Shown here: one piece after another, positions 5,668-31,217 of the stretch
How positions within the stretch are numbered: position 1 is the stretch's first letter
Layout of the letters: each line of letters begins with the position of its first letter
Source of the DNA: Cystobacter fuscus
Lineage (GTDB): Bacteria; Myxococcota; Myxococcia; Myxococcales; Myxococcaceae
Length of the DNA stretch: 64,000 nucleotides
Assembly (NCBI RefSeq): GCF_002305875.1
Contig: NZ_CP022098.1
Location: forward strand, 2,108,001 to 2,172,000
Direction of reading: 5' to 3'
Position numbers and translations under genes: made by a program
The notes under the pieces: generated by a model
The model's database searches: none
Seen by the model: the letters and a program-made list of their open reading frames with translations, nothing else
Told to the model about the DNA's origin: nothing

Positions 5668-8600
5668 TCAGCGTTGGGCGGTGGGCGATGCGGGGCCGCG
5701 CAGCGTGACCTTGCGCGAGAAGCCTTGGTCCACCCGGCCGAGGAAGGTACGGAAGGCGGCGTAGTCGTCCGCCTTCACCCGGGCCGAGGTGAGCGCCACC
5801 TCGCCGTCGCACACCAGTTGCTGTCCCTCCTGCTTGTAGGTGAGCCGCACCCGGCCAAAGGGCGTCTCCTCCTGGAGGGTGGGGGGCAGCTCGGCCACGG
5901 AGTAGCCCGCGGGCAGCGTGTAGCGGAAGGTGAAGCGGTTCACCCACGGGCCGCTCATCATCAGATCGAAGCGGCGCTCGGCGAGCGCGGCGTACGTCTG
6001 GGTGTAGGCGCGCCCGGTGCCGAAGGGCAGGAAGCGCAGTTGACCGGGGAGCGCCTCGGCGAAGCGGGGGATGGCCATGCGGAAGTCCACCTTCACGTCC
6101 TCGTCCAGGCGCGTGGTGTCATTGAGCTTCACGTCGCGCACGGTGAGGCCGGGGAAGCTCTGGGCCCAGGCGCGCTCGAAGGTGGACTTGCGCGAGGACA
6201 CGGAGGTGTAGGCGCGGCGGTACTCGGGCGCCATCTGCCCACCCACCGTCGTGGCACCGCCCACCTCGGCGCTGCCATCCGGACGCAACGTCACGTCCAT
6301 GCTCAGGCGCGTGGCGTTGTCGTCCGCCGTCGCCTCGGGGGTGGTGAGGAACGAGGCCTTGCCGCCCGGCTCCACCACCAGCACGTTGGCCACCCGGTCC
6401 GCGCTGGGCAGCTCGCGCGCGCTGTGGAACTCGGCGGTGCCGTCCAGGTAGAGGCCGAACTGCGGCACGTAGACGATGGCGTGGTTGAAGGCCGCCAGGC
6501 TCGCCGGCTCCTCGCCGATGGAGCCCAGGTCGCGCATGCGCAACAGCACCAGCCGGCTGTCCACCCCCGCCACCTTCAACATGGCGTGGATGAGGCTCGC
6601 CTTGTCCTTGCAGTCGCCGAAGCGCCGCGACAGCACCCGGTCCACCCGGTACGGCTTGAAGCCGTGGATGCCGAACTCCAGCGCCACGTAGCGCGTGTTC
6701 GTCACCACGAAGTTGTAGATGGCGCGCATCACCGCCTGCTGATCCTTGCGGTCCACGCCCTTGAGCACCGTCTCCACCGTCTGGCGCAGCTCCTCGTTGG
6801 GCGTGAGCTGATCCCTCACCAGGCCCCACCAGTAGCGACCCACCTCGTCCCAGGTGCGGTAGGTGGAGACGTGGAGGTTGGCGGCCACCTCGGCCCAGCC
6901 GGGCATGCCGGGCTCGGGCACCACCTTGGCCACGTGCTTCGCGCTCCAGCGGTGCAGCACGCGCTCGCCCTCCACGGGCTCGTGGGCATAGGCGACCCCG
7001 GGCAGCTTCTTCTCGTTCCAGTAGAGGGGCCGCTCCTGGGGCATCTCCACGAGGAACTGATAGCTCACCTTGGGATAGACACCCTGCACGCTCTCCACGT
7101 CGCCCCAGTAGTCGGACAGCAGGTTGTCCTGGGCGGTGTCGTCCACGCGGTACTGCAACTCCAGCACGTCCCCGGCGGCGAGCGCGGGGAAGGAGAGCAT
7201 CTTGGCGCGCGCGTCGTAGTACATGCCCGTCCAGGGCTCGTTGATGTTGCGGTCGCTCTCGCCGTAGCTGTCCACCACGGAGCCGTCCGGCTTGGTGATG
7301 CGGGCGCGGAGGATGCGCACCTCCTGCCGATCCGGCGAGTAGGTGACGGGGAATGTGCGGAAGGCGTCCACGCCGCGGGCGTTGAGCACCTTCACGGCGA
7401 ACTGGTGCAGCCGGCCGGACAGGCCACTCTTCTGCACGCGCACGTAGGTGCTCTCCGTGAGGTAGACGGCGTCCTCGTTGGTGTAGCCGTCGGCTTCTCG
7501 GACGAGGGCCTTGGGGTCCAGGAGGTACTGGGAGCCGGCGCTGGCGGCCTCGCCCTTGAGGGCGCGCAGGGCGTCCTTGAGAGTGGGGTTCTGCGGGCGC
7601 AGCGCGAGCGAGCGCTCGAAGGCGGCGATGGCCTCCTCGCGGTGGCTGGCGGCGAGCAGCGCGCGGCCCTCGCGCTCGTACAGCTCGGGCTCGTCCGGGG
7701 AGAGGGCGCGCGCCTCGGCGAAGCCGGTGGTGGCCGCGTCGAGCTGGCCATTGGCGGCGCGCAGCTCGGCGAGCTTCAACCGCGAGCCGTTGTCGAAGGG
7801 GTAGAGCGAGAGCAACTGGGTGTACTCGCGCACGGCGGGCTCCAGCTGGCCGCGGTCCGCGAGCAGCGAGGCGAGCAGGGTGCGGCTGGTGCGATCGTCA
7901 TGGCGCAGCGCGAGCGCCACGCGCAGCCGGGAGGCGGCCTCCTCGGGCCGGTCCAGGGCGCGCGCGGAGCTGGCGGCGGCGCGCACCACGCGGGGGATGC
8001 GCGGCAGCCGCAGGAGCGTCTCCTCCACGAGCTTGTGCGCGCGCGCCGTCTCCCCGAGCGCCTCGTGGGCCCGGGCGAGCGTGAGCCGGACCCCGGCCGA
8101 GTCGGGGGAGTTCGTCAGGTCGGGGGTGAGCAGCTCCAGGACGCGCTCGGGGTGGCCGCGCTCCAGCTCGAACTCGGCGAGCGCCACGCGGGCGCGCACC
8201 AGCGAGGGGTCGGCGCGCACGGCGGCTTCCAGGAAGAGGCGGCGCTGGTTGAGGTCCTCGCGGGCGGTGGTGGCGGCGATCAGTTGCAGCCGCGCGTCGT
8301 TCGGGGCGGCGCGGGCGGCGCGCTCGGCCTCCACGGTGGCGGTGTGCTCGCGCTCGTCGAAGGCGCGGAAGTAGTCGAGCACGGTGGCGTACTCGCCACG
8401 CAGGGTGGCGTCCGCGGGAGCGCGGGCCACCGCGTCCCTCAGGCTGGAGGTGAGGGTGGGCAGGAGCTGGGGCGCGGGGGTGGTGCCCTTGGTGATCGCC
8501 GGGGCGGTGGAGGGCAGGGTGACGCGCAGCCGGCCGGGGGGATCCCGGCGCAGGTAGAAGCCGAGGGGCCCCGACTCCTGGCACACCTTGACGAGGACGC

Positions 8601-9354
8601 GGTTGAGGCCCTTGCGCAGGCGCACGGAGACGCGCGTCTGATCCGGCCGGGGCAGGTTGTAGTGGTCGCTGGTGGCGGCCTTCTCACCATTCACCCACAG
8701 CCGGAAGGCGCCGGAGGTGCCCACGCCGAGCGTCACGCGCGCCTCGGCCGGAGCCTCCAGCCAGGTGACGGCGTAGGCCACGGCCTCGCGGTTGGGACGC
8801 AGCGCGGCGCCCAGGTCGATGTAGCCATCGTTGGGGGTGACGGACAGGGGGCGCCAGGACACGGGGCCCTTGGCGCCAGAGTAGCGGGCGGACAGGTCGA
8901 GCGCGGTCGCCTCGGGGCCGAAGTCGGTGTCACAGCCGGCCTTGCCCTCGTTGTCGAAGCCGCCGACGACGTAGAAGTCGCGCACGAAGCCCAGCGAGTC
9001 CTGCCACTCGGCGGCGCGGGTGAGCCGGCCGCGGGCGCGCTCCAGGTCCAGCATGAGGAACTGCGCGGTGGCGCGGGTGCCGGGGTCCACGAACTTCCGG
9101 GTCGTGGCCACCTCGGTATAGGTCTTCGCCAGGAGGGTGAGATCGTCGAGGTCCGGCTCGAGCGCCTGCATGCGCAGCAGGTGCGCGGCGCCCCGGGGGG
9201 ACGAGGCGAGGGAGAGGGCCTGCTCGGCCTCTTGTTGGGCCTCGGCGGCGCTCGGGTTGGAGGCGGCCCGCGACAGGAGCGGGCAGGCGAGCACGAGGAG
9301 TGTCGCGAGCCAGGGAGCGGGAGAGCGCGGGGCGAGCCGTGGGGTACGAGACAT
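5668..9354 (-). CDS. DUF3857/TPR/transglutaminase-like exported protein
   Basis: A 1228-residue exported protein. A signal peptide (MSRTPRLAPRSPAPWLATLL, ending near LLSRAAS) supports the ATG at 9354 rather than an upstream in-frame start. Residues about 50-300 look like beta-rich carbohydrate or lectin-like domains, 310-620 are TPR helices rich in Ala/Leu/Arg, 640-830 match the DUF3857 fold, and 830-1010 form a transglutaminase-like domain with a complete triad: Cys915 (FGDCKDKASL), His958 (FNHAIVYV) and Asp971 (YLDGTAEF). A further beta domain closes the protein. The family is widespread in myxobacteria and Bacteroidetes, but its substrate is unknown; periplasmic protein processing or cross-linking is plausible. 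It is not obviously in an operon. Confidence 0.88.
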   Translation of the reverse strand: MSRTPRLAPRSPAPWLATLLVLACPLLSRAASNPSAAEAQQEAEQALSLASSPRGAAHLLRMQALEPDLDDLTLLAKTYTEVATTRKFVDPGTRATAQFLMLDLERARGRLTRAAEWQDSLGFVRDFYVVGGFDNEGKAGCDTDFGPEATALDLSARYSGAKGPVSWRPLSVTPNDGYIDLGAALRPNREAVAYAVTWLEAPAEARVTLGVGTSGAFRLWVNGEKAATSDHYNLPRPDQTRVSVRLRKGLNRVLVKVCQESGPLGFYLRRDPPGRLRVTLPSTAPAITKGTTPAPQLLPTLTSSLRDAVARAPADATLRGEYATVLDYFRAFDEREHTATVEAERAARAAPNDARLQLIAATTAREDLNQRRLFLEAAVRADPSLVRARVALAEFELERGHPERVLELLTPDLTNSPDSAGVRLTLARAHEALGETARAHKLVEETLLRLPRIPRVVRAAASSARALDRPEEAASRLRVALALRHDDRTSRTLLASLLADRGQLEPAVREYTQLLSLYPFDNGSRLKLAELRAANGQLDAATTGFAEARALSPDEPELYEREGRALLAASHREEAIAAFERSLALRPQNPTLKDALRALKGEAASAGSQYLLDPKALVREADGYTNEDAVYLTESTYVRVQKSGLSGRLHQFAVKVLNARGVDAFRTFPVTYSPDRQEVRILRARITKPDGSVVDSYGESDRNINEPWTGMYYDARAKMLSFPALAAGDVLELQYRVDDTAQDNLLSDYWGDVESVQGVYPKVSYQFLVEMPQERPLYWNEKKLPGVAYAHEPVEGERVLHRWSAKHVAKVVPEPGMPGWAEVAANLHVSTYRTWDEVGRYWWGLVRDQLTPNEELRQTVETVLKGVDRKDQQAVMRAIYNFVVTNTRYVALEFGIHGFKPYRVDRVLSRRFGDCKDKASLIHAMLKVAGVDSRLVLLRMRDLGSIGEEPASLAAFNHAIVYVPQFGLYLDGTAEFHSARELPSADRVANVLVVEPGGKASFLTTPEATADDNATRLSMDVTLRPDGSAEVGGATTVGGQMAPEYRRAYTSVSSRKSTFERAWAQSFPGLTVRDVKLNDTTRLDEDVKVDFRMAIPRFAEALPGQLRFLPFGTGRAYTQTYAALAERRFDLMMSGPWVNRFTFRYTLPAGYSVAELPPTLQEETPFGRVRLTYKQEGQQLVCDGEVALTSARVKADDYAAFRTFLGRVDQGFSRKVTLRGPASPTAQR

Positions 9355-9519
9355 CCGTGTTCCTCGTCCGTCGGAAGGGGGGACCGGGGTGTCATTCCCG
9401 GCGCCGGTGAACAGCCGGACTTCGGGCAGCCTTCCCTGCATGCGCTGTTGGGAGCGGGCAGGCAACTGAAATGTCGAGGAACGTGCGAGGGAGCGGGCCC
9501 GGCGTCCGGGGCCCGGGGT

Positions 9520-10218
9520 TCAGGCGAGGGAGAAGGCGCGGGCGAGGGTGAGGACCTCCACGTGGGGGGCCCCGGCCTCCTGGAGGGCGGTGGCGGCGGC
9601 GCGGACGGTGGCGCCGGTGGTGAGCACGTCGTCCACGAGGAGCACGTCCCGTCCGGCCACGGAGGCGGAGGCGCGGAAGGCCTGGGAGACATTGAGGGCG
9701 CGCTCGGCCTCGGACAGGCCCACCTGGCGGCGCGTCTCGCGGGCGCGGTGGAGCAGACCCAGGCTGGCCTCGCGGCCCGTGGCGCGGGCCAGGGCCTCCA
9801 CGAGCAGTTGGGCCTGATCGTACTTGCGTTCGCGAAAGCGCTTGCCATGCAGGGGCAGGGCGACGAGCAGGGTGGGGGCCCGGGAGAGGAAGTGGCGGCA
9901 CTCGGTGGCGAGCAGCTCTCCGAGGACGGGGGCGAGCTCGGGATGGTCCTCGTACTTGAAGCGGTGGATGGCGCGGGCGACGGGGCCCTCGTGGGCGAAG
10001 GGAGCCCAGGCGCGGGAGAAGGGAGGCGGCGAGTCGTGGCAGCGGGGGCAGGTGTGGCGGGGGAAGGAGCCGGGCTCGGCGCAGGTGCGGCAGCGCGCGA
10101 TGGGCAGCCGTTCCACGGCGAGGTCGCACGTCTCGCAGAAGGCGGCGCGCACGGGCATCACCTTCGCGCAGGCGATGCACGCGGGCGGGTAGAGCAGTTC
10201 GAGGAGGGACTGGAGCAC
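9520..10218 (-). CDS. comF: ComF family phosphoribosyltransferase-like protein
   Basis: ComF family protein linked in other bacteria to DNA uptake and to recovery of stalled forks. The N-terminal zinc-ribbon region has paired cysteines (YPPACIAC, FCETC, CRTC, HTCPRC). The C-terminal type I phosphoribosyltransferase domain carries the PRPP-binding motif VLLVDDVLTTGAT and the family motif KRFRERKYDQAQLL. Length, about 232 residues, is normal. The start is uncertain: the GTG at 10218 gives an N-terminus like other ComF proteins (VLQSLLELLYPPAC), while a TTG at 10236 would add six residues; neither has a clear ribosome-binding site. It is transcribed divergently from the ATPase operon, 107 bases away. 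Confidence 0.88.
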   Translation of the reverse strand: MLQSLLELLYPPACIACAKVMPVRAAFCETCDLAVERLPIARCRTCAEPGSFPRHTCPRCHDSPPPFSRAWAPFAHEGPVARAIHRFKYEDHPELAPVLGELLATECRHFLSRAPTLLVALPLHGKRFRERKYDQAQLLVEALARATGREASLGLLHRARETRRQVGLSEAERALNVSQAFRASASVAGRDVLLVDDVLTTGATVRAAATALQEAGAPHVEVLTLARAFSLA

Positions 10219-10325
10219 GCGGGGCGGACTGTGCAACCCGGGGGCCAGCGGAGGCCGGAGCGCTCGAGGATGCTTGTTGAAGTCTCCCGCCCTGTGTCAG
10301 CGTCCCTCTCCTCTTTGGAGGACAT

Positions 10326-11468
10326 GTGGCTGCTGATGTTCTGGAGGTCCGTAATCTCGGGCAGATCGCACATGCTCGCATCGAGTTTGGAGACCTGACC
10401 GTGCTGGTAGGTCCCCAAGCGGCGGGGAAGAGCCTCCTGTTGCAGACGTGGAAGCTGGGGCTCGACGCGGGAGAGATCGTCTCCGCGCTGCGTGATGCTG
10501 GGACCTCCCTGGAGAACAAGAACGAGCTGTTGGATGCGTACTACGGCGAGGGGATGAGCACGGCGTGGGTGGGGAAGACCCGGGTGTCCATCAATGGCCA
10601 GCCGTTGCGCCCCGAGGAACTGCTACATGCCCGGAAGGCAAAGGGCCGCGTGTTCTTCGTCCCGGCTCATCGTGCCCTCCTCATGTCAGAGGGGTGGCCA
10701 TCGCCCTTCATTCGGCTCAAGGCGGATACGCCAACCGTGGCCCGCCTGTTCAGCCAGAGTCTGTATGATCGTTTCACGGGAAAGCAGACAGGAGATCTGT
10801 TTCCAGTGGAGCGACGGTTGAAGCAGGGGGTGCGTACCCTGATCGACGATGCCGTCTTCCATGGGGGCACGGTGCGGCTGGAGAAGGCCGGATTGCAGAC
10901 CCGGCTTGAGCTGGGCTACGGCAAGACACAGCTCCCGTTCATGACCTGGACCGCTGGTCAGCGTGAGTTCACGCCGCTCCTGTTGGGCCTCTACCGGGTT
11001 CTTCCCGAGCGGCGCAAAAGGAAGGAAGAGGACATCGAGTGGGTCATCATCGAGGAGCCTGAAATGGGTCTTCATCCCCAGGCACTGACGGCGGTCATGG
11101 CCCTGGTCCTCGATCTGTTGTGGCGAGGCTACCGGGTGGTTTTGTCAACTCACTCGCCCGTCGTGCTGGATGTCGTCTTCGCCATCCAGTCCCTGCGGGA
11201 CAAGAAGCAAGGCGCTCGGAAGCTGCGCGAGGCATTCGGGCTGTCCGCTGGGGCGGAGAATGTGCGGTTCATCAGCGAGGCACTCAACAAGTCCACGAGG
11301 ACCTACGCCCTGGCGTTCGATGAGGAACTCCGCGTCCACGGCCGGGACATTTCCAGCCTCGATCCAGGCGCCGATGACGCGGCGACCTCGGGCTGGGGTG
11401 GGCTGACCGGTTTCAGTGGGAGATTTGGAAAAGCCATCTCCGATGCGGTCAACGAGGAGGGCTCGTGA
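10326..11468 (+). CDS. ABC/SMC-like AAA ATPase, first gene of an uncharacterised two-gene operon
   Basis: A 380-residue ATPase of the AAA_21/OLD-like class. Walker A is GPQAAGKS (29-36). The signature-like segment WTAGQREFTPLL lies near 208-219, Walker B VIIEEPEMGLHP near 240-251, and the switch STHSP near 274-278. It lacks the long coiled coil of RecF/SMC proteins and the C-terminal TOPRIM of OLD nucleases. The GTG start at 10326 is supported by TGGAGGA at 10316-10322, while an out-of-frame ATG two bases earlier is not. The stop overlaps the GTG of the next gene (GTGA), so the pair is coupled. Such ATPases often work with a small effector in phage-defence or toxin modules; that role here is inference. 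Confidence 0.85.
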   Translation: MAADVLEVRNLGQIAHARIEFGDLTVLVGPQAAGKSLLLQTWKLGLDAGEIVSALRDAGTSLENKNELLDAYYGEGMSTAWVGKTRVSINGQPLRPEELLHARKAKGRVFFVPAHRALLMSEGWPSPFIRLKADTPTVARLFSQSLYDRFTGKQTGDLFPVERRLKQGVRTLIDDAVFHGGTVRLEKAGLQTRLELGYGKTQLPFMTWTAGQREFTPLLLGLYRVLPERRKRKEEDIEWVIIEEPEMGLHPQALTAVMALVLDLLWRGYRVVLSTHSPVVLDVVFAIQSLRDKKQGARKLREAFGLSAGAENVRFISEALNKSTRTYALAFDEELRVHGRDISSLDPGADDAATSGWGGLTGFSGRFGKAISDAVNEEGS

Positions 11469-19652: not shown

Positions 19653-19794
19653 GAAGTGGGTCCTACCAGACAGGCTCCTCGAGGAGGAAGCGCGCGAAGC
19701 GGATGCACGAGGCCCGCCTGGCATACGAGCGGGATCCTCCTGATGGACCACCCCTGACGGGTTTCCCCTCCACTCCTCTGTTACAAGCCCGCCC

Positions 19795-21270
19795 ATGTCA
19801 GTCGTCCCCATTCCGCCTCCCTCTCCGCTGGACCGCGAACGCTTCGAGGCGCTCGTGGTGGAGGGGTACAATCAGGTTCCCCTCGTTCGCTCGGTGGAAT
19901 TGCACGGCGCACGGCCCGTGGACGTGCTGCGAGCCCTTCCCCCGGGGCACCGCTTCCTGCTCGAGAGCACCCGCGTCTCCAGCGAGGGCCGCTACTCCTT
20001 CGTGGGAGCGAAACCCTTCCTGTCGTTCCGGGCCCAGGGGACGCGGTGCGAGGTGAACGGCGAGCCCCAGCCGGGCGAGCCCCTGGCCACCCTGAGTGGG
20101 TTGCTGGGGCGCTGGCGGGGCGTGCGGCTGCCGGGAATGCCGCTCTTCTGCGGCGGGGCGGTGGGCTTCTTCGCCTACGAGGCCGCACACCACTTCGAAT
20201 CCCTGCCGCGCCGCCCGAACGACGAGCTGGGCCTGCCGGACATCGCGCTGGATTTCGTGGACACCTTCGTGGCGGTGGACCACCTGGAGGACCGGGCGCT
20301 CGTGGTGGCCACGGGCCGTGACTACGAGGATTGCCTGCGACGTTTGGATGCGCTGGAGCGTGTCGTGCGCGCGGTCGTCTCGGCCGGGCCGCCGGCACCG
20401 GCCTGGCGCCTCGCGGACGGCCAGACGCCGGACGTGCCCTGGTGCTCCAACTTCACGCAGGAGGGCTACCAGCGCGCGGTGGAGCGCGTGCAGGAGTACA
20501 TCCGCGCGGGAGATACCTACCAGGTCAATCTCTCGCAGCGGCTGGAAGTGGAGCCGAGGCTCCCCGCGCTGGAGCTGTACGAGGCCCTCGCGTCCATCAG
20601 CCCGGTGCACTTCGCCAGCTACCTGGAGGTGGATGGCTTCGAGGTGGTGAGTGCCTCGCCCGAGCGTCTGGTCCGGGTGGAGGACGGCCGGGCCATCACC
20701 CGCCCGATCGCGGGCACGCGCCGCAAGGGCACGCCGGAGGAGAACGCCCGGTTCGCGCACGAGCTGCGCACCAGCGAGAAGGAGCGGGCGGAGCACGCGA
20801 TGCTGGTGGACCTGGAGCGCAACGACCTGGGGCGCGTCTGCGCCTACGGGAGCGTCCAGGTGACGAAGCTGATGGAGATCATCGAGTACGCCCACGTGCT
20901 CCACATCGAGTCCGAGGTGGTGGGTCGGCTGGCGCCGGGAGTGGAGCCGCTCGACGTGGTGGCGGCGGTGTTCCCGGGTGGCACCATCACCGGCGTGCCG
21001 AAGATCCGCACCATGCAGATCATCACCGAGCTGGAGCCCCACGCGCGGGGCCTCTACACGGGCTCGCTCGGGTACGTGAGCTTCACGGGCGAGCTGGACC
21101 TGAACATCGTCATCCGCACCATGGTGCTCAAGGGTGGCCGGGCCTGGGTGCAGGTCGGGGCGGGCATCGTCCACGACTCGGAGCCGAGGCGCGAGTACCA
21201 GGAGACGCTGCACAAGGCCCGCTCGTTGTTGCTGGCGCTGTCCGCGCGCCCGGTGGAGGACGCGGCATGA
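19795..21270 (+). CDS. pabB: Aminodeoxychorismate synthase component I (or anthranilate synthase I)
   Basis: A 491-residue chorismate-binding enzyme. The C-terminal half carries the catalytic signatures [32 protein letters not shown] (304-313), [33 protein letters not shown] and [16 protein letters not shown]. TrpE and PabB share these. The gene order pabB-pabA-pabC, with an aminotransferase class IV gene third, argues for p-aminobenzoate and folate synthesis. Against that, the PIAGT motif has Ala where E. coli PabB has its nucleophilic Lys (PIKGT), so a TrpE-like role is not excluded. The stop overlaps pabA (ATGA), giving a coupled operon. Confidence 0.88.
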
Positions 21271-21839
21271 TGCTGCTCATCGACAACTTCGACTCCTTCA
21301 CCTTCAACCTCGTGCAGGCGCTGGGCGGGCTCGGGGCGGAGCCGAAGGTGGTGCGCAACGACGCCCTCGCTCTCTCCGGGGTGGAGGCCCTGCGGCCGGA
21401 GCGCATCGTCATCTCACCGGGCCCGTGCACGCCGAACGAGGCCGGCATCTCCCTGGAGGTCATCCGCGCTTTCGCGAGCCGGGTGCCGGTGCTCGGGGTG
21501 TGCCTGGGGCACCAGTCCATCGGTCAGGTGTTCGGCGGGCGCGTCGTGCGGGCACCGGTGCCCGTGCACGGGAAGACGGCCGACATCCACCACGATGGCC
21601 GAGGCGTCTTCCGGGGCCTGCCCAACCCGTTTGTCGCCGCGCGCTATCACTCGCTGGTGGTGGAGCGGGCGAGCCTTCCAGAGTGCCTGGAGGTCACGGC
21701 CTGGTGCGGCGAGCTGGTGATGGGGCTGCGCCACCGCGAGTACCCGTGGGTGGAGGGCATCCAGTTCCATCCCGAGTCCTTCCTCACACCGCACGGCAAC
21801 ACGTTGCTCGCGAACTTCCTGGAGGAGCGAAGCGGATGA
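21267..21839 (+). CDS. pabA: Glutamine amidotransferase subunit (aminodeoxychorismate/anthranilate synthase component II)
   Basis: A 190-residue class I glutamine amidotransferase that supplies ammonia to the chorismate-binding partner. It begins with [17 protein letters not shown]. The nucleophile is Cys79 in [15 protein letters not shown], and the His/Glu pair is His167 and Glu169 in IQFHPES. The oxyanion segment [11 protein letters not shown] and the conserved [11 protein letters not shown] are present. It overlaps pabB at its start and pabC at its end, each by four bases (ATGA), so all three are made from one message in close to equal amounts. The same subunit may serve both folate and tryptophan synthesis, as in Bacillus, if no other copy exists. 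Confidence 0.95.
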
Positions 21840-22645
21840 TGGACACGGTCGCGGTGAACGGAGAGGTGCGGCGGCTCGAGGAGTTGCGGCTCCAGGACTT
21901 CCTCCAGTCGTTCTTCTTCGGCGCGGGCTTCTTCGAGACGTTCCTCGTCACCGGGGGCATGCCCATGTTCCTCGGGCGGCACCTCGCGCGGCTCCGGTCG
22001 AGCCTCGAGGCCCATGAGGGCTGCGTGCGCGCACCACCCGAGGACGTGCTCACCGTCGGCGCCGTCCGTCAGTCCTTGCAACGGTGTCTGGAGGCGGATG
22101 CCAGCCTGGGCCCGAGCTTCTCCGGCGTGGGTAAGCTGGTGGCGGGAGATGGGCGGCTGCTGCTGTCCTTCCGGGCCTTGCCGGCCCCCCAAGAGCACAC
22201 GGTCCTCGATGAGAGGGAGGAGCATTGCTACCGGAGGGGTGACCCCACCTTGAGACACAAGAGCGTCTCGTACCTGCGGCAGTACGCGCACTTCGGCCGG
22301 GGAGTGGTCTTCGCCAACGAGGCCGGGGAACTCTGTGAGGCGCCGAACGGGAATCTGTTCTTCCTCCTGGATGATGCGGTGGTGACTCCACCCCTGGAGG
22401 CCCCCTGCCTTCCCGGCATCATCCGCTCCGTGCTGCTGGAGGAAGGACGGCTCGGGGACATGCCGGTCGTGGAGCGCTCGGTGGGGCGGGAGCAACTGGA
22501 GTCAGTCCGAGGCTGTGTCCTCACCAACTCCGTGAGCCTCGCGCTCGCCGTTCCGCGGCTGCTCGGGCGGGAACTGCCCGGCAGCCACGTGCTGGCCGAG
22601 CATGCTCGGGCCGTGGTGCGGGAGTACGCACGGCGCGAGGAGTGA
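21836..22645 (+). CDS. pabC: Aminodeoxychorismate lyase-like class IV aminotransferase
   Basis: A 269-residue PLP enzyme of fold type IV. The Schiff-base lysine is Lys142 in [11 protein letters not shown]. The later motifs [27 protein letters not shown] and GCVLTNSV match the PLP-phosphate binding part of PabC and branched-chain aminotransferases. With pabB and pabA directly upstream it most likely cleaves 4-amino-4-deoxychorismate to p-aminobenzoate and pyruvate. The ATG overlaps the pabA stop. The 3' third of the gene is duplicated downstream with an internal in-frame deletion (25045-25236), marking the left edge of a tandem duplication that also contains the following lipoprotein gene. Confidence 0.9.
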
Positions 22646-22752
22646 AGGTCCTCACCCGCTGCTTCCCCGCTCGTCCCCAGCGAGGATTGACGTTGGGTGA
22701 AATTTCGAAGGACGATGGGCACACGCGTTGTATGTCGATGACAGGGACGGTC

Positions 22753-24123
22753 ATGAATCGGCTTCTGGTACTGTGCGTGCTGGGCTCGATGGCGTTGTTG
22801 GGTTGTGAGCCGGCGGGGGAGATGTTGCAGCTCATCCCTTCGCCCGATGGGACCTACCAGGCCGTCGTGCTGGATTGTCGCAATGGCCCGATTGAGCGAA
22901 TGACTTTGATCAAGGTGGTTCGTTCGGGTGGAGCGTTGGACTGCGCGACCAGGGCTTTGCAGCAAGTGACGTTGTCCCCCGGGCTGTCTCCACGCATGGT
23001 CTGGATGTCGGAGGACTCGTTGCTCATCGATGATCGGAAAGAGCGGACGCTCACCTTCATGGAAATCAAGGAGGGAGAGGTGTCGATGACGTTCTCATCG
23101 TGGACGGTTCTCAAGACTCCGTCGCGCGAGCAGAGCAGAGGCAGGGAGCATCTCCCGCCAGCACCGCCCTCCATCAAGACGCCGCCCTTCGCCGTGCGAA
23201 GCATGTCCAGGGCAGATGTCGTGCCAGAACCGCCCATCAAGACGCCACCCGTCGCGCCAGCGTGCGGTTTCAGGGGCCTGACCTTGCCCGCCGACTTCGC
23301 CGTCCTGGCTGGTGGCGGCCACGGGGGCAAGAGGAGCACGGTGCAGATCGATCAGAGCGGGAGCGCCGCCACGACCATGACAGTGAGTGTCGACAACCCG
23401 GGCAAGCCCGTCGTGCTGATGCTTGGTTCCCAAGAGCCGACCCTCTGGTCGATCCGACGCTCTCAAGAGACGACCATCCTGGCCGTGCTGGTCAGCAGTT
23501 CCTATCGACAGATCGTCGCGGGCCTGGATGCCACCACGCCGGTCACCGTTCTCACGGCCGAGAACAGGAGCGAGTGCGGTTACTTCTACGTGGATGCGAA
23601 TCGCCTCGAGACGCTGAACCCCATGGCCCAGCGCTTCTTCGGGCGTGATGTCGACATGGTCTACCCGGCAAGCGGAGGTGAGGTCACCCTGGGCGAGGCG
23701 AAGGGCACGCCCTCCAAGTGGGTGGGGGGGAGCGACGCGCCAGTGGAGTCGTACGCCGACAAGACGGCGCCGCTGGCGGGGGAGGCGGGCCTTGATGATG
23801 CCTTGCGCAAGGGGCTGCTGCGGCGCGCGAACATTGGCGACATCAATAAGTGGGAAGCGCAGATGGCGCGCGTGGCGCCTGGGCGCGGAGCGACATCCGT
23901 CTCGGGCGATGGGCAGGCCTCCAGGCTCAGGTCGTCGCACATGATGCGCAATGCATACGTCGTGCTGCGGCCCATGACGTTTCCGGCGGGCCTCTATGGG
24001 GCGCGCTCGGCGGTGTTCTTCGTACCGAAAGGCACGAAGCGCCCGCGTGGCAATCCAGGTCACTCCGAGGTCTACGACTTCAACGACATGAGTTGTACCG
24101 GTGGTCCGAGGTGTCACCTGTAG
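22753..24123 (+). CDS. Lipoprotein of unknown function, copy A
   Basis: A 456-residue lipoprotein: MNRLLVLCVLGSMALLGC ends in lipobox LLGC, with Glu-Pro following Cys18. A short beta domain (LIPSPDGTYQAVVLDCRNG) is followed by a Pro-rich linker (residues about 135-175), and then a domain whose strands read MTVSVDNPGKPVVLMLGS, SIRRSQETTILAVLVSS and RQIVAGLDATTPVTVLTA. From memory, a similar beta domain occurs in uncharacterised secreted proteobacterial proteins. No catalytic motif stands out. The gene is nearly identical in layout to copy B at 25333; the two arose by tandem duplication. The ATG at 22753 is chosen for the signal peptide and the AGGGA six bases upstream. No immunity-type gene follows. 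Confidence 0.8.
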   Translation: MNRLLVLCVLGSMALLGCEPAGEMLQLIPSPDGTYQAVVLDCRNGPIERMTLIKVVRSGGALDCATRALQQVTLSPGLSPRMVWMSEDSLLIDDRKERTLTFMEIKEGEVSMTFSSWTVLKTPSREQSRGREHLPPAPPSIKTPPFAVRSMSRADVVPEPPIKTPPVAPACGFRGLTLPADFAVLAGGGHGGKRSTVQIDQSGSAATTMTVSVDNPGKPVVLMLGSQEPTLWSIRRSQETTILAVLVSSSYRQIVAGLDATTPVTVLTAENRSECGYFYVDANRLETLNPMAQRFFGRDVDMVYPASGGEVTLGEAKGTPSKWVGGSDAPVESYADKTAPLAGEAGLDDALRKGLLRRANIGDINKWEAQMARVAPGRGATSVSGDGQASRLRSSHMMRNAYVVLRPMTFPAGLYGARSAVFFVPKGTKRPRGNPGHSEVYDFNDMSCTGGPRCHL

Positions 24124-24169
24124 TCGCGTGTTGGCGTTGGTTGGAGGACTCGCTCATCCATGGGGGTGT

Positions 24170-24813
24170 TCATGCCGCCTCCATCGTGGGGTAGTCCGTC
24201 AGGCCGGTTTCACCCGGTGCGTAGAAGGTCTGAGGGTTGGGATTGTTCAGCGGGGCCCGCCTGGCGAAGCGCTTCGGCAGATCCGGATTGGCGAGGAACA
24301 GCCGGCCATAGGCGACGGCGTCCAGGGTGCCCCGGGCGAGTGCCTCTTCGCCCGTCTCGCGGTCGAACTCACCCGCTCCGATCAGCCGGCCCGCGTAGTG
24401 CGACCGGCTCCACTCCAGCGGGATTCCTGGTCCAGACCCATGGGCGAGATCCTGCGCGGTGACACGGGTCACATCGACCCAGGCGAGACCCAGCGGACGG
24501 AGCCGCTCGAGAAGATAGGCGAAGGTCTCCTCAACCCGTGGATCCGGGCTCCCCGCGACGGTGGCGCTGGGCGAGAACCTGATTCCAACGCGCTCGGCAC
24601 CGTAGACGTCCGAGACCGCCGCGAGGATTTCCAGCGTCAAGCGTGTGCGGTTCTCGAGGTTCCCCCTTCACGATGCCGGCGATTTCGGATGTCGTGAGAT
24701 CAACCGGCGTGAGCGCTTCCATCATGGCCCAGCCGGGTGGCCGTCCCCTGGCTTCGTCTTCCGTGCGTTCGCGCCCGGTGTGCCAGAGCTGGGTGGCGAT
24801 CAGGCCACCCGCG
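24170..24813 (-). pseudogene. Decayed old yellow enzyme (NADH:flavin oxidoreductase)
   Basis: Three pieces of an OYE/NemA-type ene-reductase remain in order. The 5'-most piece reads GGLIATQLWHTGR, the active-site barrel segment. The second reads EALTPVDLTTSEIAGIV. The third, in a shifted frame, reads NLENRTRLTLEILAAVSDVY and runs to the natural C-terminus (FYAPGETGLTDYP). The N-terminal 90 or so residues and the middle segment with the catalytic Tyr and the HGANGYL motif are deleted. The longest open frame is only 156 residues and cannot fold as the barrel. It sits inside copy A of the tandem duplication and is absent from copy B. Confidence 0.8.
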
Positions 24814-25044
24814 TCATGGCGTCATGAAGACGCTGTTCGGGTCGGGCACATGGTCGCCGAACGGCGGGCACTCCACGATCTCACCATGCTCCGGCGAGAG
24901 CCGCTTCAGCGCGCCGACACCCAGAAGCGTCTCGTCCTCCCAGATCGTCCAGAGGCGGATGTCGGGCGATCGCAGCTCGGTGAGGTCCAAGGCGTGCGCA
25001 CTGCCCGGTGCCGTCTCCTCCCGGGCACGCGTGGGATGGATGTG
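24814..25044 (-). pseudogene. Truncated GNAT acetyltransferase, copy A
   Basis: A decayed copy of the intact GNAT gene at 26731-27189. The readable part runs HALDLTELRSPDIRLWTIW, LLGVGALKRLSPEHGEI and then directly VECPPFGDHVPDPNSVFMT. Compared with the intact copy, 56 residues are deleted in frame between GEI and VEC, including the acetyl-CoA-binding QSMRGRGAG loop. The first 20 or so residues are also lost where the fragment meets the pabC remnant. It cannot bind acetyl-CoA. Confidence 0.85.
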
Positions 25045-25236
25045 GTGTTCCTCCTCCTGGGGGACGCGGTGGTGACTCCGCCCCTGGAGGCCCCCTGCCT
25101 TCCCGGCATCATCACCAACTCCGTCAGCCGCTCGCTCGCCGTTCCGCGGCTGCTCGGGCGGGAGTTGCCCGGGAGTCACGCGCTGGCCGAGCGTGCTCGG
25201 GCCGTGGTGTGGGAGTATGCACGGCGCGAGGAGTGA
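25045..25236 (+). pseudogene. 3' remnant of a second pabC
   Basis: Encodes [17 protein letters not shown] joined directly to [18 protein letters not shown], and ends with the same YARREE C-terminus as pabC. Relative to intact pabC, 33 residues (99 bp) are missing in frame and everything upstream of the FFLLDD segment is absent, including the PLP lysine. It marks the start of duplication copy B. The 3' flank after its stop remains similar to that of intact pabC. Confidence 0.87.
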
Positions 25237-25332
25237 CGGCCCGCACCGCTGCTTCCCCGGCGAGGGTTGACGCTGGGTAAAACCTCAGAGGACGATGGAC
25301 CCACGCATTGTGTGTTGATGACAGGGATGGTC

Positions 25333-26706
25333 ATGAATCGGCTGCTGGTGCTGTGCGTGCTGGGCTCGATGGCGTTGTTGGGTTGTGAGCCAGCGGGGGA
25401 GATGTTGCAGCTCATCCCGTCGCCCGACGGGACCTACCAGGCCGTCGTGCTGGATTGCCGCAATGGCCCGAGTGAGCGAAGCACTTTGATCAAGGTGGTT
25501 CGTTCGGGTGGAGCGTTGGACTGCGAGAGCAGGGCCTTGCAGGAAGTGACGTTGTCTCCCGGGCTGTTTCCACGCATGGTCTGGATGTCGGAGGACTCGT
25601 TGCTCATTGATGATCGGAAAGAGCGGGAGCTCACCTCCATGGAGCGCAAGGAGGGAGAGGTGTCGATCATGTTCTCATCGTGGACGGTTCTCAGGACTCC
25701 GTCGCGCGAGCTGAGCAGACTCAGGGAGCATCTCCCGCCAGTACCGTCCCCCATCAAGACTCCGCCCGTCGTCGCTTCGCGCGAGCCCAGGGGGGCCGAT
25801 GTCGTGCCAGAACCGCACATCAAGGCGCCACCCGTCGCGTCGGCTTGCGGCTTCAGGGGCTTGTCCTTGCCCGCCGACTTCGCCGTTCTGGCTGGCGGCG
25901 GCTACGCGGGCAAGGAGAGTTCGGTACAGATTGATCAGAGCGGGAGTGTCGCCACGACCATGACGGTGAGTGTCGACAACCCTGGCAAGCCCGTCGTGCT
26001 GATGCTTGGTGCCTATGCGCCGACCATCTGGTCGATCCGGCGCTCTCAGAAGACGACCCTGCTGGCCGTGCTGGTCAGCGGCTACCATCGCCAGATCGTC
26101 GCGGGCCTGGATGCCGATACGCCGGTCGCCATCCATACGGCCGACGACGGGAGTTCATGCGGTTCCTTCTATGTGGACACGGATCACCTCGAGGAGCTGA
26201 ACCCCATGGCTCGGCGGTTCTTCGGGCGTGATGTCGACATGGTCTACCCGGCGCACAACGGTGAGGTCATCCTGGGCGAGGCGAAGGGCACGCCCTCCAA
26301 GTGGGTGGGTGGGAGCGATGCGCCAGTGGAGTCGTACGCCGACAAGACGGCGCCGTTGGTGGGGGATGCGGGCCTTGATGATGCTGTGCGCAAGGGGCTG
26401 CTGCGGCGCGCGAACATCGCGGACAGCAACGCGTGGGACGAGGAAATGGCGCGCCTGGCGCCTGAGCGCGGATCGCCACCCGTCGCGGGCGGAGTGCCAG
26501 CCCCCAGGCGGAGGTCGTTGCACATGATGTACAACGAATACGTCGTCCTGCGGCCCATGACGTTTCCGGCGGGTCTCTACGGAGCGAACTCGGCGGTGTT
26601 CTTCGTACCAAGAGGTACGGAGCGTCCGCGTGGCAATCCAGGCGGCTCCGTGGTCTACGACTTCAACGACATGAGTTGTACCGGCATGTTGTGCCGCCTC
26701 GAGTAG
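25333..26706 (+). CDS. Lipoprotein of unknown function, copy B
   Basis: A 457-residue paralogue of the lipoprotein at 22753, with the same signal peptide and lipobox (LLGC), Pro-rich linker and beta-rich domain (MTVSVDNPGKPVVLMLGA, LVSGYHRQIVAGLDADTPVA). The C-terminal part VVLRPMTFPAGLYGANSAVF and VVYDFNDMSCTG is also shared. Differences are spread along the gene, with the linker (residues 135-180) most divergent. Unlike the genes around it in the duplication, both lipoprotein copies keep full open frames, which suggests both are expressed and selected. The ATG at 25333 is the one that starts the signal peptide. The function is unknown. Confidence 0.8.
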   Translation: MNRLLVLCVLGSMALLGCEPAGEMLQLIPSPDGTYQAVVLDCRNGPSERSTLIKVVRSGGALDCESRALQEVTLSPGLFPRMVWMSEDSLLIDDRKERELTSMERKEGEVSIMFSSWTVLRTPSRELSRLREHLPPVPSPIKTPPVVASREPRGADVVPEPHIKAPPVASACGFRGLSLPADFAVLAGGGYAGKESSVQIDQSGSVATTMTVSVDNPGKPVVLMLGAYAPTIWSIRRSQKTTLLAVLVSGYHRQIVAGLDADTPVAIHTADDGSSCGSFYVDTDHLEELNPMARRFFGRDVDMVYPAHNGEVILGEAKGTPSKWVGGSDAPVESYADKTAPLVGDAGLDDAVRKGLLRRANIADSNAWDEEMARLAPERGSPPVAGGVPAPRRRSLHMMYNEYVVLRPMTFPAGLYGANSAVFFVPRGTERPRGNPGGSVVYDFNDMSCTGMLCRLE

Positions 26707-26730
26707 CCGCGTGTTGGACCGGCGGGAAGC

Positions 26731-27189
26731 TCACAGCTCGAGCGTCATGAAGACGCTGTTCGGGTCGAGCACATAGTCGGCGAACGGCGGGCACTCCACG
26801 AAGCCATGGCTCGTGTAGAGCGCCCGTGCGGGCCGGAAATAATCCCAGGAGCCCGTTTCCAGGCTGAGGCGCGACATACCGCTGGCCCGTGCGGTCTCGA
26901 TGATATGGCGCAACATGGCGCTTCCAGCGCCCCGGCCGCGCATGGATTGCGCCGTATGCATCGACTTGATCTCACCATGCTCCGGTGAGAGCTGCTTCAG
27001 CGCGCCGACACCCAGAAGCGTCTCGTCCTCCCAGATCGTCCAGAGGCGGATGTCGGGCGATTGCAGCCCGGTGAGGTCCAAGGCGTGCGCACTGCCCGGT
27101 GCCGTCTCCGCCCGGGCTCGTGTGAGATGGATGTGGAGCAGCTCGATGACGCGCGGGTCACCGAGGTCGCCTGGGATGATTCGCATCAT
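26731..27189 (-). CDS. GNAT family N-acetyltransferase
   Basis: A 152-residue acetyltransferase. The acetyl-CoA pyrophosphate loop reads QSMRGRGAGSAMLRHII (motif A, Q/RxxGxG/A), preceded by a beta strand (EIKSMHT) and followed by LSLETGSWDYFRPARALY and GFVECPPF (motif B). The overall pattern resembles small-molecule GNATs such as the YsnE/phosphinothricin type, but the substrate is unknown. It is convergent with lipoprotein copy B. It is the only intact copy of a gene that is truncated at 24814-25044. The start at 27189 (MMRIIPGDL) matches the usual N-terminal strand of the family. Confidence 0.9.
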   Translation of the reverse strand: MMRIIPGDLGDPRVIELLHIHLTRARAETAPGSAHALDLTGLQSPDIRLWTIWEDETLLGVGALKQLSPEHGEIKSMHTAQSMRGRGAGSAMLRHIIETARASGMSRLSLETGSWDYFRPARALYTSHGFVECPPFADYVLDPNSVFMTLEL

Positions 27190-27230
27190 GGCTGGCTTCC
27201 TATCATCTCACGCGACCTTCTCGCCTTGCT

Positions 27231-27992
27231 TCAGTCCCCGGCGTGCTTCGCGGCGTCCTCGATCAGCGCCGCGACCTCCTTGGGGTGCGACACGTAGACC
27301 GCATGGCTTCCCTTCACCTCGACCTTGTGGCTGTGGGCGCGTGCGGCGTACATCCGTTGCAGCTCGGGATGGATGATCTTGTCCTCCGTCGACACGAGCA
27401 TCCAACTGGGCTTTGTCTTCCAGGCGGGATTGACGATGGGCGTCGACATCGCCCGGAGCGAGGTGGGCATCTGCGAGCGAGCCATGAACTCGGCCTGCTC
27501 GCGCGGCAGGTCAGCGGCGAAGTCCTCATGGAAGCGCGCGGGATCGATGAAGAGGAAACCGTCCGGCGTGGGTGCGATCGCCTTCGAGGCGCCTGGCATC
27601 TTCGCTTTGTTGGAGACGCCGCTCTCTCCCGTGTCCGGCATGTGGGCCGCGATGTAGACGAGCCCGGCGACCCGTGGATCCGTTCCCGCCTGGGTGATGA
27701 CGGTGCCACCGTAGCTGTGACCGACCAGCAGGACGGGGCCTTGCTGGCGGTCGAGAAGACGCTTCGTCGCGGCGACATCGTCTTCCAGCGAGGTCATCGG
27801 GTGCTGGAGGATGCTGACGTTGTACCCGTGCTTGATCAGGATGTCGTGAACGGGCTTCCAGCCGGAGCCGTCGACGAAGGCTCCATGAACCAGAACGACG
27901 TTCTTCACCGGGGCGGCGAGCACGGGAGAGGAAACCCCTCCGAGGACGAGGAAGGCGGCGAAAGCAGAGGCGAGGCGGTTGAGGTGCATCAT
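27231..27992 (-). CDS. Exported alpha/beta hydrolase
   Basis: A 253-residue hydrolase. A signal peptide (MMHLNRLASAFAAFLVLGG, cleaved near VLAAP) exports it to the periplasm. The fold motifs are VVLVHGAFVDGSGW (oxyanion hole), the nucleophile elbow VGHSYGGTVI, and a late His in KGSHAVYVSHPKEV; the acidic residue is probably the Asp of STEDKIIHP. The sequence is close to the pyrethroid-esterase/HNL-like single-domain hydrolases often annotated as alpha/beta fold family. AAAGGA lies six bases before the ATG at 27992. The promoter upstream (28042 to 28016, minus strand) matches that of the divergent sigma-factor gene, so this hydrolase is probably part of that sigma factor's regulon. Confidence 0.9.
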   Translation of the reverse strand: MMHLNRLASAFAAFLVLGGVSSPVLAAPVKNVVLVHGAFVDGSGWKPVHDILIKHGYNVSILQHPMTSLEDDVAATKRLLDRQQGPVLLVGHSYGGTVITQAGTDPRVAGLVYIAAHMPDTGESGVSNKAKMPGASKAIAPTPDGFLFIDPARFHEDFAADLPREQAEFMARSQMPTSLRAMSTPIVNPAWKTKPSWMLVSTEDKIIHPELQRMYAARAHSHKVEVKGSHAVYVSHPKEVAALIEDAAKHAGD

Positions 27993-28015
27993 GAGGTGTC
28001 CTTTGAAGAGCCCGT

Positions 28016-28042
28016 GAGACGACGCTCGCGCGCACCTATTCC
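28016..28042 (-). promoter_or_regulatory. ECF-type promoter of the alpha/beta hydrolase gene
   Basis: On the minus strand, GGAAT (28042-28038) is followed by exactly 16 bases and then CGTCTC (28021-28016), the -35/-10 arrangement of extracytoplasmic-function sigma factors. The wider strings GGAATAGG and CGTCTCACGGGC are almost identical to the plus-strand promoter at 28062-28088. The hydrolase ATG lies about 24 bases downstream of the -10 element. Confidence 0.72.
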
Positions 28043-28061
28043 CCGGCTTTCGGAGCGGTGC

Positions 28062-28088
28062 GGAATAGGGACAGGATTCGGTCGTCTC
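28062..28088 (+). promoter_or_regulatory. ECF-type autoregulatory promoter of the sigma-factor operon
   Basis: GGAAT (28062-28066), a 16-base spacer and CGTCTC (28083-28088), continuing CACGAGC. It has the same core and spacing as the divergent promoter at 28042-28016; GGAATAGG forms an 8-bp inverted repeat with CCTATTCC at 28035-28042. The ATG at 28100 lies only 11 bases past the -10 element, so the message may be nearly leaderless. Confidence 0.72.
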
Positions 28089-28099
28089 ACGAGCGCCCC

Positions 28100-28609
28100 A
28101 TGACCGAGACCGACGAAGCCGAACTCCGTGACTTGATTCCCCGCTTGCGGCGGTTCGCACGGGCCTTGACCCACGATTCCACCGCCGCCGACGACCTCGT
28201 GCAGGCGAGCCTCGAGCGCGCGGTGTCGAGATGGAAGAGCCGGCACGAGGCGGGCAGCCTCCAGGCCTGGCTGTTCTCCATCCTGTACCGGCGCTTCCTC
28301 GACGAGCGCAAGCGCGCGGGGCGCTTCTCGCGGCTGCTGGACGTGTTCCGGGGTCCCCGGGACGTGGCGCCCTCGGCCGAGGAGGTGGTCATCGCCCGCG
28401 CCTCGCTGGAGTCCTTTGGCCGGTTGCCACCCGAGCAGCGGGCGTTGATGCTGCTGGTGGCCGTGGAGGGCTTGAGCTATGGCGAGGCCGCCGAGGCGCT
28501 CGGGGTGCCCATCGGGACGGTGATGTCCCGCCTGTCGCGCGCGCGCAAGGCGCTGCGCGAGTTGACGGACAATGATGTGTCTCCTCCTTCTCTCCGGGTG
28601 CTGAAATGA
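28100..28609 (+). CDS. ECF RNA polymerase sigma factor
   Basis: A 169-residue group IV sigma factor. Region 2 spans LRRFARALTHDSTAADDLVQ to LQAWLFSILYRRFLDE, and region 4 spans LPPEQRALMLLVAVEGLSYG to the helix-turn-helix GVPIGTVMSRLSRARKAL. It has only regions 2 and 4, as ECF factors do. The ATG at 28100 is chosen; a GTG at 28058 would place the start upstream of the -35 element of its own promoter. The stop overlaps the anti-sigma gene (ATGA). The matching promoters on both sides imply positive autoregulation and control of the exported hydrolase. Confidence 0.93.
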   Translation: MTETDEAELRDLIPRLRRFARALTHDSTAADDLVQASLERAVSRWKSRHEAGSLQAWLFSILYRRFLDERKRAGRFSRLLDVFRGPRDVAPSAEEVVIARASLESFGRLPPEQRALMLLVAVEGLSYGEAAEALGVPIGTVMSRLSRARKALRELTDNDVSPPSLRVLK

Positions 28610-29361
28610 CGCCGCTCATTCCGACCGAGGACGAACTGCACGCCTATGTCGATGGCCAGTTGGACGATGGCCGGAGGCGGGAGGTCGAGGCCTGGCTCGA
28701 GGCCACCCCCGAGTGGGCGGAGACGGTTGCCGCATGGAAGCGCGATGCCGAGCGGCTGCGCGCTGCGCTCGCCAATCCCCGTGCCCTCCCGCCCGCTCCC
28801 CAACTCGAGCCCTCCGCCATCCGCCGCTCGTTGCGCGCCCGGACGCGCCAGCGCGTGGCCTTGGCGGCGGCCCTGGTGCTCACGGCGGGCGTGGGCGCCG
28901 TGGGCGGCTGGGTGGCCCGCTCGATGACGATGGCCGCCACGCTCCCGCCCATGGAGGACGCGCTCCAGGCCTACCGCCTGTTCGCGATGGACCAGGCGCA
29001 CGCGCTCGAGCTGGACGCGTCGAAGTCCGACGACTTGAAGCGATGGCTGGTCAGGAACCTGGGCCCCCGGGCGGCGGTGCCGGATCTCCAGGCGCACGGC
29101 TTCACGCTGCTCGGCGGGCAATTACTGTCGACCGACGCGGGCGCGGCCGCTCTGTTGCTCTACGAGGCCCGGGACGGACGACGTCTCGGCTTCTACATGC
29201 GTCCGGGAACCCGGGTTCCCGGCCGGACGAAGGGGCTGCGTCAGGATGGAGTGCTGCTCACCCATTACTGGTTCCGCGACGGCTACGGCTTCGCCGTCAT
29301 CAGCCTCTCGGATGATCCGCGCGCGGACGAGGTGAAGGAGGCCCTCGACGCCTCGACGTGA
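28606..29361 (+). CDS. Membrane-bound anti-sigma factor
   Basis: A 251-residue partner of the sigma factor. The cytoplasmic N-terminus (EDELHAYVDGQLDDGRRREV) is the RsiW/ChrR-like helical domain of anti-sigma factors, but it lacks the HxxxCxxC zinc motif, so it is a non-zinc (plain ASD) type. One transmembrane helix lies near residues 84-106 (VALAAALVLTAGVGAVGGW). The periplasmic domain of 145 residues contains LQAHGFTLLGGQLLS and GYGFAVISLSDD, and probably senses the signal. Start and stop codons overlap with the sigma gene (ATGA), which fits the equal production needed for a sigma/anti-sigma pair. Confidence 0.88.
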   Translation: MTPLIPTEDELHAYVDGQLDDGRRREVEAWLEATPEWAETVAAWKRDAERLRAALANPRALPPAPQLEPSAIRRSLRARTRQRVALAAALVLTAGVGAVGGWVARSMTMAATLPPMEDALQAYRLFAMDQAHALELDASKSDDLKRWLVRNLGPRAAVPDLQAHGFTLLGGQLLSTDAGAAALLLYEARDGRRLGFYMRPGTRVPGRTKGLRQDGVLLTHYWFRDGYGFAVISLSDDPRADEVKEALDAST

Positions 29362-29414
29362 CGGGCCCGTTCGCCCCGGGCTCGGTGCGTCACCGCCGCG
29401 AGCACCATACGCTC

Positions 29415-30026: not shown

Positions 30027-30039
30027 GGCGGGCACGAGC

Positions 30040-31164: not shown

Positions 31165-31217
31165 GCCGCCCCCGGACGCGCGCGGCGCGCGCCGTCTGAC
31201 GCGCCGGGCGGGGCGGG

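Follow-up and report, generated by a model that had tools for sequence, protein, structure and literature searches.

A tandem duplication ending inside pabC and a GNAT gene, with two open lipoprotein copies, in Cystobacter fuscus

Within a 64,000-nt window of the 12.35-Mb single-contig genome of Cystobacter fuscus (G000; positions 2108001-2172000), we analyzed a locus in which pabC, a lipoprotein gene, and a GNAT acetyltransferase gene each occur twice, in whole or in part. The direct repeats (300 nt at 91% and 87%, 169 nt at 95%, and 139 nt at 89%) form two tandem copies, as the initial annotation had said and as the open reading frames agree, and their length and identity exclude a chance match. 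In its present state, copy A occupies 22356..25045 (2690 bp) and copy B 25046..27136 (2091 bp); the start of the unit had earlier been placed at 22384 and is corrected here to 22356, inside pabC. The left end gene of the unit is an intact, aminodeoxychorismate lyase-like aminotransferase class IV gene on the forward strand (21836..22645; PF01063, E 6.8e-26), the product of which shares 90% protein identity with that of a relative from the same genus (G003). Because it scores below the NCBIfam cut-offs for pabC, the name is taken from its position behind trpE/pabB and pabA (the latter with amidotransferase domain PF00117 in the window). The right end gene is an intact GNAT acetyltransferase on the reverse strand (26731..27189; PF00583, E 1.7e-14), with protein identities of 93% to a second relative of the genus (G001) and 90% to G003. 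Between these two genes lie lipoprotein genes A (22753..24123, 456 aa) and B (25333..26706, 457 aa), both on the forward strand, belonging to an orphan family and encoding proteins with 80% identity, together with remnants of pabC, GNAT, and an OYE-type flavin oxidoreductase gene.

Both relatives carry the locus in a single-copy state. In G003, the gene order is trpE/pabB (PF00425, PF04715), pabA, pabC, lipoprotein, alpha/beta hydrolase (PF00561), OYE-type flavin oxidoreductase (PF00724), LysR (PF03466, PF00126), GNAT, and GST, with the hydrolase and OYE genes on the strand opposite to the preceding genes. In G001, hydrolase, OYE, and LysR (all three confirmed by Pfam), GNAT, and GST follow in the G003 order, while pabC and the lipoprotein gene were not found. 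Each of the two genomes holds one GNAT match (E <= 1e-15), with whole hydrolase, OYE, and LysR frames beside it. A genome from another genus (G010) has a pabC match at 89% and no lipoprotein match. Further, of the trpE/pabB core G001 retains no more than 121 nt at this locus, and its pabA stretch is approximately 10 nt shorter than that of the window (L026 13053-13814). Given this fragment, the shortened pabA, and the absent pabC and lipoprotein genes, the trpE/pabB end of the locus is rearranged in more than one species. On the other side, GNAT directly abuts GST in G003 and G001, and only G000 of the three genomes has an insertion of approximately 2.2 kb there (27196-29422), which encodes an alpha/beta hydrolase, an ECF sigma factor, and a likely anti-sigma factor. 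Left of the duplication (19000-23192), the window is approximately 91% identical to G003, and right of it (29423-32000) 97%, which suggests that the two sides had different recombination histories.

Mapped onto G003 with blastn (reverse strand of L016; small indels inside the lipoprotein gene left aside), the window is collinear apart from six gaps and a single step back, at window 25043/25046, where the G003 coordinate falls from 11104 to 5942. Copy A thereby covers G003 5942..11104 with four deletions, in five pieces: 22356-24164 corresponds to 5942-7670, 24164-24666 to 8583-9085, 24663-24818 to 9210-9365, 24819-24878 to 10712-10771, and 24877-25043 to 10938-11104. Copy B follows in three, with 25046-25113 corresponding to 5942-6009, 25109-26717 to 6104-7640, and, running into the flank, 26729-27195 to 10699-11165. 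By the length of G003, the unit in its single-copy state measured approximately 5165 bp. Its left end lies inside pabC at codon ~174, leaving the first 173 codons plus one base outside, and its right end lies inside the minus-strand GNAT gene at codon ~18, leaving the first 17 codons plus two bases outside. The two ends are joined head to tail at 25045..25046, distal to proximal, as expected of a tandem duplication. Compared with the intact GNAT and pabC genes of the window itself, this joint has no shared bases, and, by eye, no common stretch is seen in the 22 nt on either side in G003. The joint, lacking long end repeats over those 22 nt, and the single-copy order in the relatives are those of a tandem duplication with short or no homology.

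This geometry bears directly on the pattern of whole and cut genes. The initial annotation had described an intact pabC, lipoprotein genes open in both copies, and an intact second GNAT, all of which are present, along with internal losses of 56 residues from the first GNAT and 33 from the second pabC, each with 2 nt of microhomology, which are likewise present (168 nt and 99 nt, respectively). The remnants are, however, shorter than those losses alone would leave them. The pabC remnant of copy B (25046..25236, forward strand) also lacks codons 1-173, and the GNAT remnant of copy A (24819..25045, reverse strand; 95% to 26742-26801 and 26968-27136) also lacks codons 1-17 (53 nt) and the last 11 nt, with the duplication junction joining GNAT to pabC directly. 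Since the two ends of the unit lie inside its first and last genes, a tandem copy would leave the first pabC whole, the second GNAT whole, and a headless GNAT set against a headless pabC. The complementarity, earlier attributed to independent decay, therefore requires none and follows mainly from the position of the breakpoints: both partial genes were cut by the duplication joint itself, and the losses of 56 and 33 codons came later, in pieces already dead. Both of these losses happen to be divisible by three, to which we attach no meaning, as those of 913, 128, and 1346 bp are not. A 197-aa open frame also runs across the antisense OYE and GNAT remnants, in frame into the C-terminus of the pabC remnant (24643-25236), and is probably open by chance in this G+C-rich DNA.

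Six deletions, from 99 to approximately 3050 bp, with joints sharing 0-4 nt, have reduced the doubled unit by slightly over half (by G003 length). Those in copy A removed ~913, 128, 1346, and 168 bp, with 1, 4, 0, and 2 shared bases, and those in copy B 99 and ~3046 bp, with 2 and 2-3. The hydrolase and LysR genes were lost from both copies, and OYE persists as two pieces in copy A only, both on the reverse strand: a C-terminal part (24164..24666; 95% to the G003 gene; PF00724, E 3.5e-12) and a middle part (24663..24818; 93% to G003 and G001) that lost 128 nt on its left and approximately 1346 nt (the rest of OYE, LysR, and the end of GNAT) on its right. These OYE pieces (24164-24818) were missing from the earlier inventory, and the loss of hydrolase, OYE, and LysR is visible only against a relative. 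In copy B, the map to G003 places the joint of the ~3046-bp deletion that removed all three genes at 26707..26730; it ends just behind the GNAT stop, so that the ends of lipoprotein B and GNAT are now 24 bp apart. All six deletions left both lipoprotein genes untouched, starting 41 bp behind the stop in copy A and approximately 11 bp behind it in copy B. In crude simulations of randomly placed deletions, which ignored small indels, used simple limits, and took one deletion as 124 rather than 128 bp, the lipoprotein gene was spared with a chance of 0.19 in copy A and 0.01 in copy B, so that only copy B speaks for protection.

In a search of the C. fuscus genome with the G003 hydrolase-OYE-LysR stretch, in which 40 of 161 candidates were scored, 12 places reached E <= 0.001. 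These comprise, in the window, both OYE pieces and the end of the lipoprotein gene, and elsewhere a stretch resembling OYE at 71% and matches of 68-86% that are weaker or short. Among the 40 scored candidates there was no second ortholog-level match, the best other place being that at 71%. The earlier proposal of a tandem duplication followed by decay of its spare parts is backed by two relatives without the duplication.

The lipoprotein family itself is patchily distributed. Both window proteins have, as read by eye, a signal peptide with a lipobox cysteine (LLGC), which is also present in homologs V and X from Archangium and absent from the G003 copy and from P, a dispersed paralog in the C. 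fuscus genome (G000:C1, ~26.9-28.2 kb). The G003 gene (L016 8376-9674, reverse strand) reads LLGG in place of the lipobox cysteine. Matches at E <= 1e-6 were found in 6 of 96 family genomes (G000, G003, G039, G040, G042, and G012), that in G012 being partial (75 positions). A contig scan with one query protein found no relative among 18 stretches, and a second scan, with alignment A1, found 2 among 110. The Archangium lansinium copy (L044 10001-10765) lacks the middle part. Neither A nor B matched a curated Pfam or NCBIfam profile at E <= 0.1. The fold model was unusable (mean pLDDT 54.6, pTM 0.40), with no PDB match at E <= 0.001, and the best PDB match, a betaglycan orphan domain (E 1.3e-3), was rejected as a fold match, the TM-scores of the first four rows being <= 0.30. 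No sigma-70-like promoter was found in 22500-25400, with 0.3 expected in shuffles, a result that says little for a myxobacterium. Given the patchy presence and decay elsewhere, the lipoprotein is most likely an envelope protein of modest selective value.

Copies A and B do not tell a single history. Over all sites, they differ by 16/191 in the pabC fragment (8.4%), 12/225 in the GNAT fragment (5.3%), 49/534 in the lipoprotein N-terminal stretch with its upstream region (9.2%), and 135/885 in the C-terminal part (15.3%; dS 0.27). The C-terminal part has diverged more than the two fragments pooled (p = 9e-6 for all sites, p = 0.011 for silent sites), and the N-terminal part does not differ significantly from the fragments (p = 0.19). 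Since dead DNA is not expected to evolve more slowly than live DNA, part of the lipoprotein gene is either older than its flanks or was replaced. A divergence of the lipoproteins that long precedes that of the flanking fragments, which the initial annotation had named as incompatible with its account, is accordingly seen in the C-terminal part and not in the N-terminal part.

The trees conflict along the same line. Specifically, in the N-terminal part (to residue ~162), A and B share 23 sites, A and G003 4, and B and G003 1, whereas in the C-terminal part the corresponding counts are 6, 30, and 9 (23:4 versus 6:30, Fisher p = 9e-8). Trees that include P, V, and X group A with B in the N-terminal part (UFBoot 97) and A with G003 in the C-terminal part, with B outside (UFBoot 98). 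AU tests give 0.963 for A+B, 0.053 for A+G003, and 0.025 for B+G003 in the N-terminal part, and 1e-4, 0.982, and 0.023, respectively, in the C-terminal part. In 25-residue windows, support for A+B stops behind residue 125 and is followed by patchy support, mostly for A+G003, with A+B returning at 326-350. Directly upstream of the lipoproteins (22556-22755), B is closer to G003 than A is. In the GNAT fragments, eight sites unite A and B against G003 and G001, and one unites A and G003 against B and G001; A/B dS is 0.056, versus 0.25-0.29 to G003 over the same codons. The pabC fragment (A+G003 3, A+B 2, B+G003 2) leaves the grouping undecided, with an A/B dS of 0.18 versus 0.27 and 0.23 to G003 over the same codons. 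Significantly different trees for parts of one gene are what recombination or gene conversion produces, and one of these is the likeliest cause of the C-terminal conflict. These patterns are best accounted for if the duplication postdates the split from G003 and part of one copy was subsequently replaced by recombination.

With regard to selection, the lipoprotein is indeed the only gene open in both copies. A comparison of substitution rates between A and B, proposed earlier as a check, gave dS 0.219, dN 0.121, and dN/dS 0.55 over the whole gene, with 0.71 in the N-terminal and 0.50 in the C-terminal part. In the C-terminal part, 80/130 differences are nonsynonymous, whereas neutral simulation gave a mean fraction of 0.735 and reached so low a value once in 1000 runs; part of this divergence may predate the duplication, such that the constraint is no proof of selection on both copies since. 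The N-terminal count (34/49, p = 0.2) is not distinguishable from neutral simulation. Counting only C-terminal codons in which one of A, B, and G003 stands alone, 17/29 changes in A, 37/60 in B, and 10/27 in G003 are nonsynonymous, and constraint appears weaker in A and B than in the unduplicated G003 gene. The chance that one copy stays stop-free after 90 random substitutions is approximately 0.15, small indels being ignored in this equally crude simulation. Retention due to the lipoprotein, as put forward in the initial annotation, is compatible with the six deletions that spare the genes, the two open frames, and the C-terminal dN/dS; selection on both copies is likely, if weakly shown. Between species, N-terminal dN is 0.31 versus dS 0.20 (G003 against A and B), and with a Fisher p of 0.11 we do not claim positive selection on this part. 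In a more speculative and improbable vein, the duplication and an imported foreign C-terminal part might have given a diversified pair with a second specificity and a fast-changing N-terminal part, like polymorphic cell-surface recognition proteins.

The reading that we favor, at a probability of roughly 0.85, is that a single-copy stretch was duplicated in tandem with its ends in pabC and GNAT and then underwent deletions, with the lipoproteins kept and recombination in their C-terminal part. The stretch of pabC, lipoprotein, hydrolase, OYE, LysR, and GNAT was duplicated without visible end homology, as the joint and the two relatives show, and by this geometry pabC and GNAT each had one intact and one truncated copy from the outset. 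Six deletions with 0-4 shared bases trimmed both copies, stopping just outside the lipoproteins and the whole GNAT, and both lipoprotein copies stayed open, probably under weak constraint. The C-terminal part of at least one of them has probably been changed by recombination, either between the copies or with another strain's allele, as the conflicting trees suggest. That three whole genes were instead present in both copies and decayed independently under selection for the lipoprotein could account for the internal losses of 33 and 56 codons and for the two open lipoprotein frames. We consider it improbable, because the 5' cuts of pabC and GNAT coincide at 25045/25046, and no sequence from ahead of pabC or past GNAT separates them. 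A duplication of whole genes would take one extra deletion ending in both genes, whereas a breakpoint at that place needs no extra step.

Other readings accept this geometry and differ in timing or in the source of the copies. If the duplication were older than the split from G003, with one copy since lost there by recombination, the likeness of A and B in the GNAT fragments and N-terminal parts would reflect gene conversion between the tandem copies. This is doubtful: the C-terminal grouping of A with G003, with B outside (30 sites versus 6 and 9, UFBoot, AU), and two pabC sites near the junction that group B with the outgroup G010 are in line with it, but whole hydrolase, OYE, and LysR genes and a single GNAT stand at the locus in G003 and G001, and both the GNAT and pabC fragments have lower dS between A and B than to G003. 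The judgment on this order depends mainly on the 225 sites of the GNAT fragment together with the N-terminal part of the lipoprotein, and it counts against the favored reading that A+G003 narrowly escapes exclusion by the AU test in that part (p = 0.053). Alternatively, and unlikely in our view, the tandem arrangement was born as a merodiploid during genetic exchange, with A and B from two strains and different from the start. The uneven A/B divergence (5% to 15%), in which the live C-terminal part exceeds the dead pieces, would agree, as would the ability of transformation to make tandem duplications in Streptococcus pneumoniae, as described in PMC3784515, but the mechanism set out in that source uses repeats at both ends, which are not seen here in 22 nt on either side, and A and B are sisters in the GNAT fragment and in the N-terminal part of the lipoprotein. 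Conversion of lipoprotein B by the dispersed paralog P is very improbable; although C-terminal B shares 30 sites with P at which A and G003 share another base, the two are only 71% alike in this part, and, against the majority of P and Archangium V and X, B groups with the outgroups at 33 sites from residue 151 on (versus 9 and 14), which makes the states of B look ancestral rather than derived from P.

An apparent complementary survival of genes can thus arise without selection, in that any tandem unit ending in its first and last genes leaves one whole copy of each, which cautions against reading complementary whole and cut patterns as decay or subfunctionalization. In duplication-degeneration-complementation, two initially whole copies lose different functions through subsequent mutations; here, the second pabC and first GNAT were cut by the joint itself. 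Nor can a small tandem pair be dated from one stretch, given the conflicting trees. Gene conversion or allelic recombination between tandem paralogs gives different trees for parts of one gene, as in the lipoproteins.

We found no mention of this locus in the titles and abstract beginnings of the open-access literature, and its closest counterparts are general ones. Work on partial and chimeric gene duplicates describes breakpoints that ignore gene boundaries, such that one event partly covering two genes abuts two cut genes (PMC3449122, in eukaryotes). The truncated GNAT and pabC lie side by side in the same way; unlike in the cases of that account, the two truncated genes originally had four genes between them, their remnants are oppositely oriented, and no notable chimeric gene is seen. 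The merodiploid tandem duplications of S. pneumoniae can join two alleles and, in the mechanism worked out in PMC3784515, have repeats at both ends, whereas no end repeats are seen in the window unit; small duplications without repeats are mentioned in that source as well, their mechanism being described as unclear. The closest likeness in form is to tandem duplications by illegitimate recombination as described in PMC11111574, according to which, in many naturally occurring bacterial duplications, sequence identity plays no mediating role: direct tandem copies, a novel joint, and no visible repeat are common to both, and the locus described here differs in being old, with copies 5-15% different and slightly over half of the doubled unit gone. 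The duplication is ordinary in kind, and its elements are known in kind.
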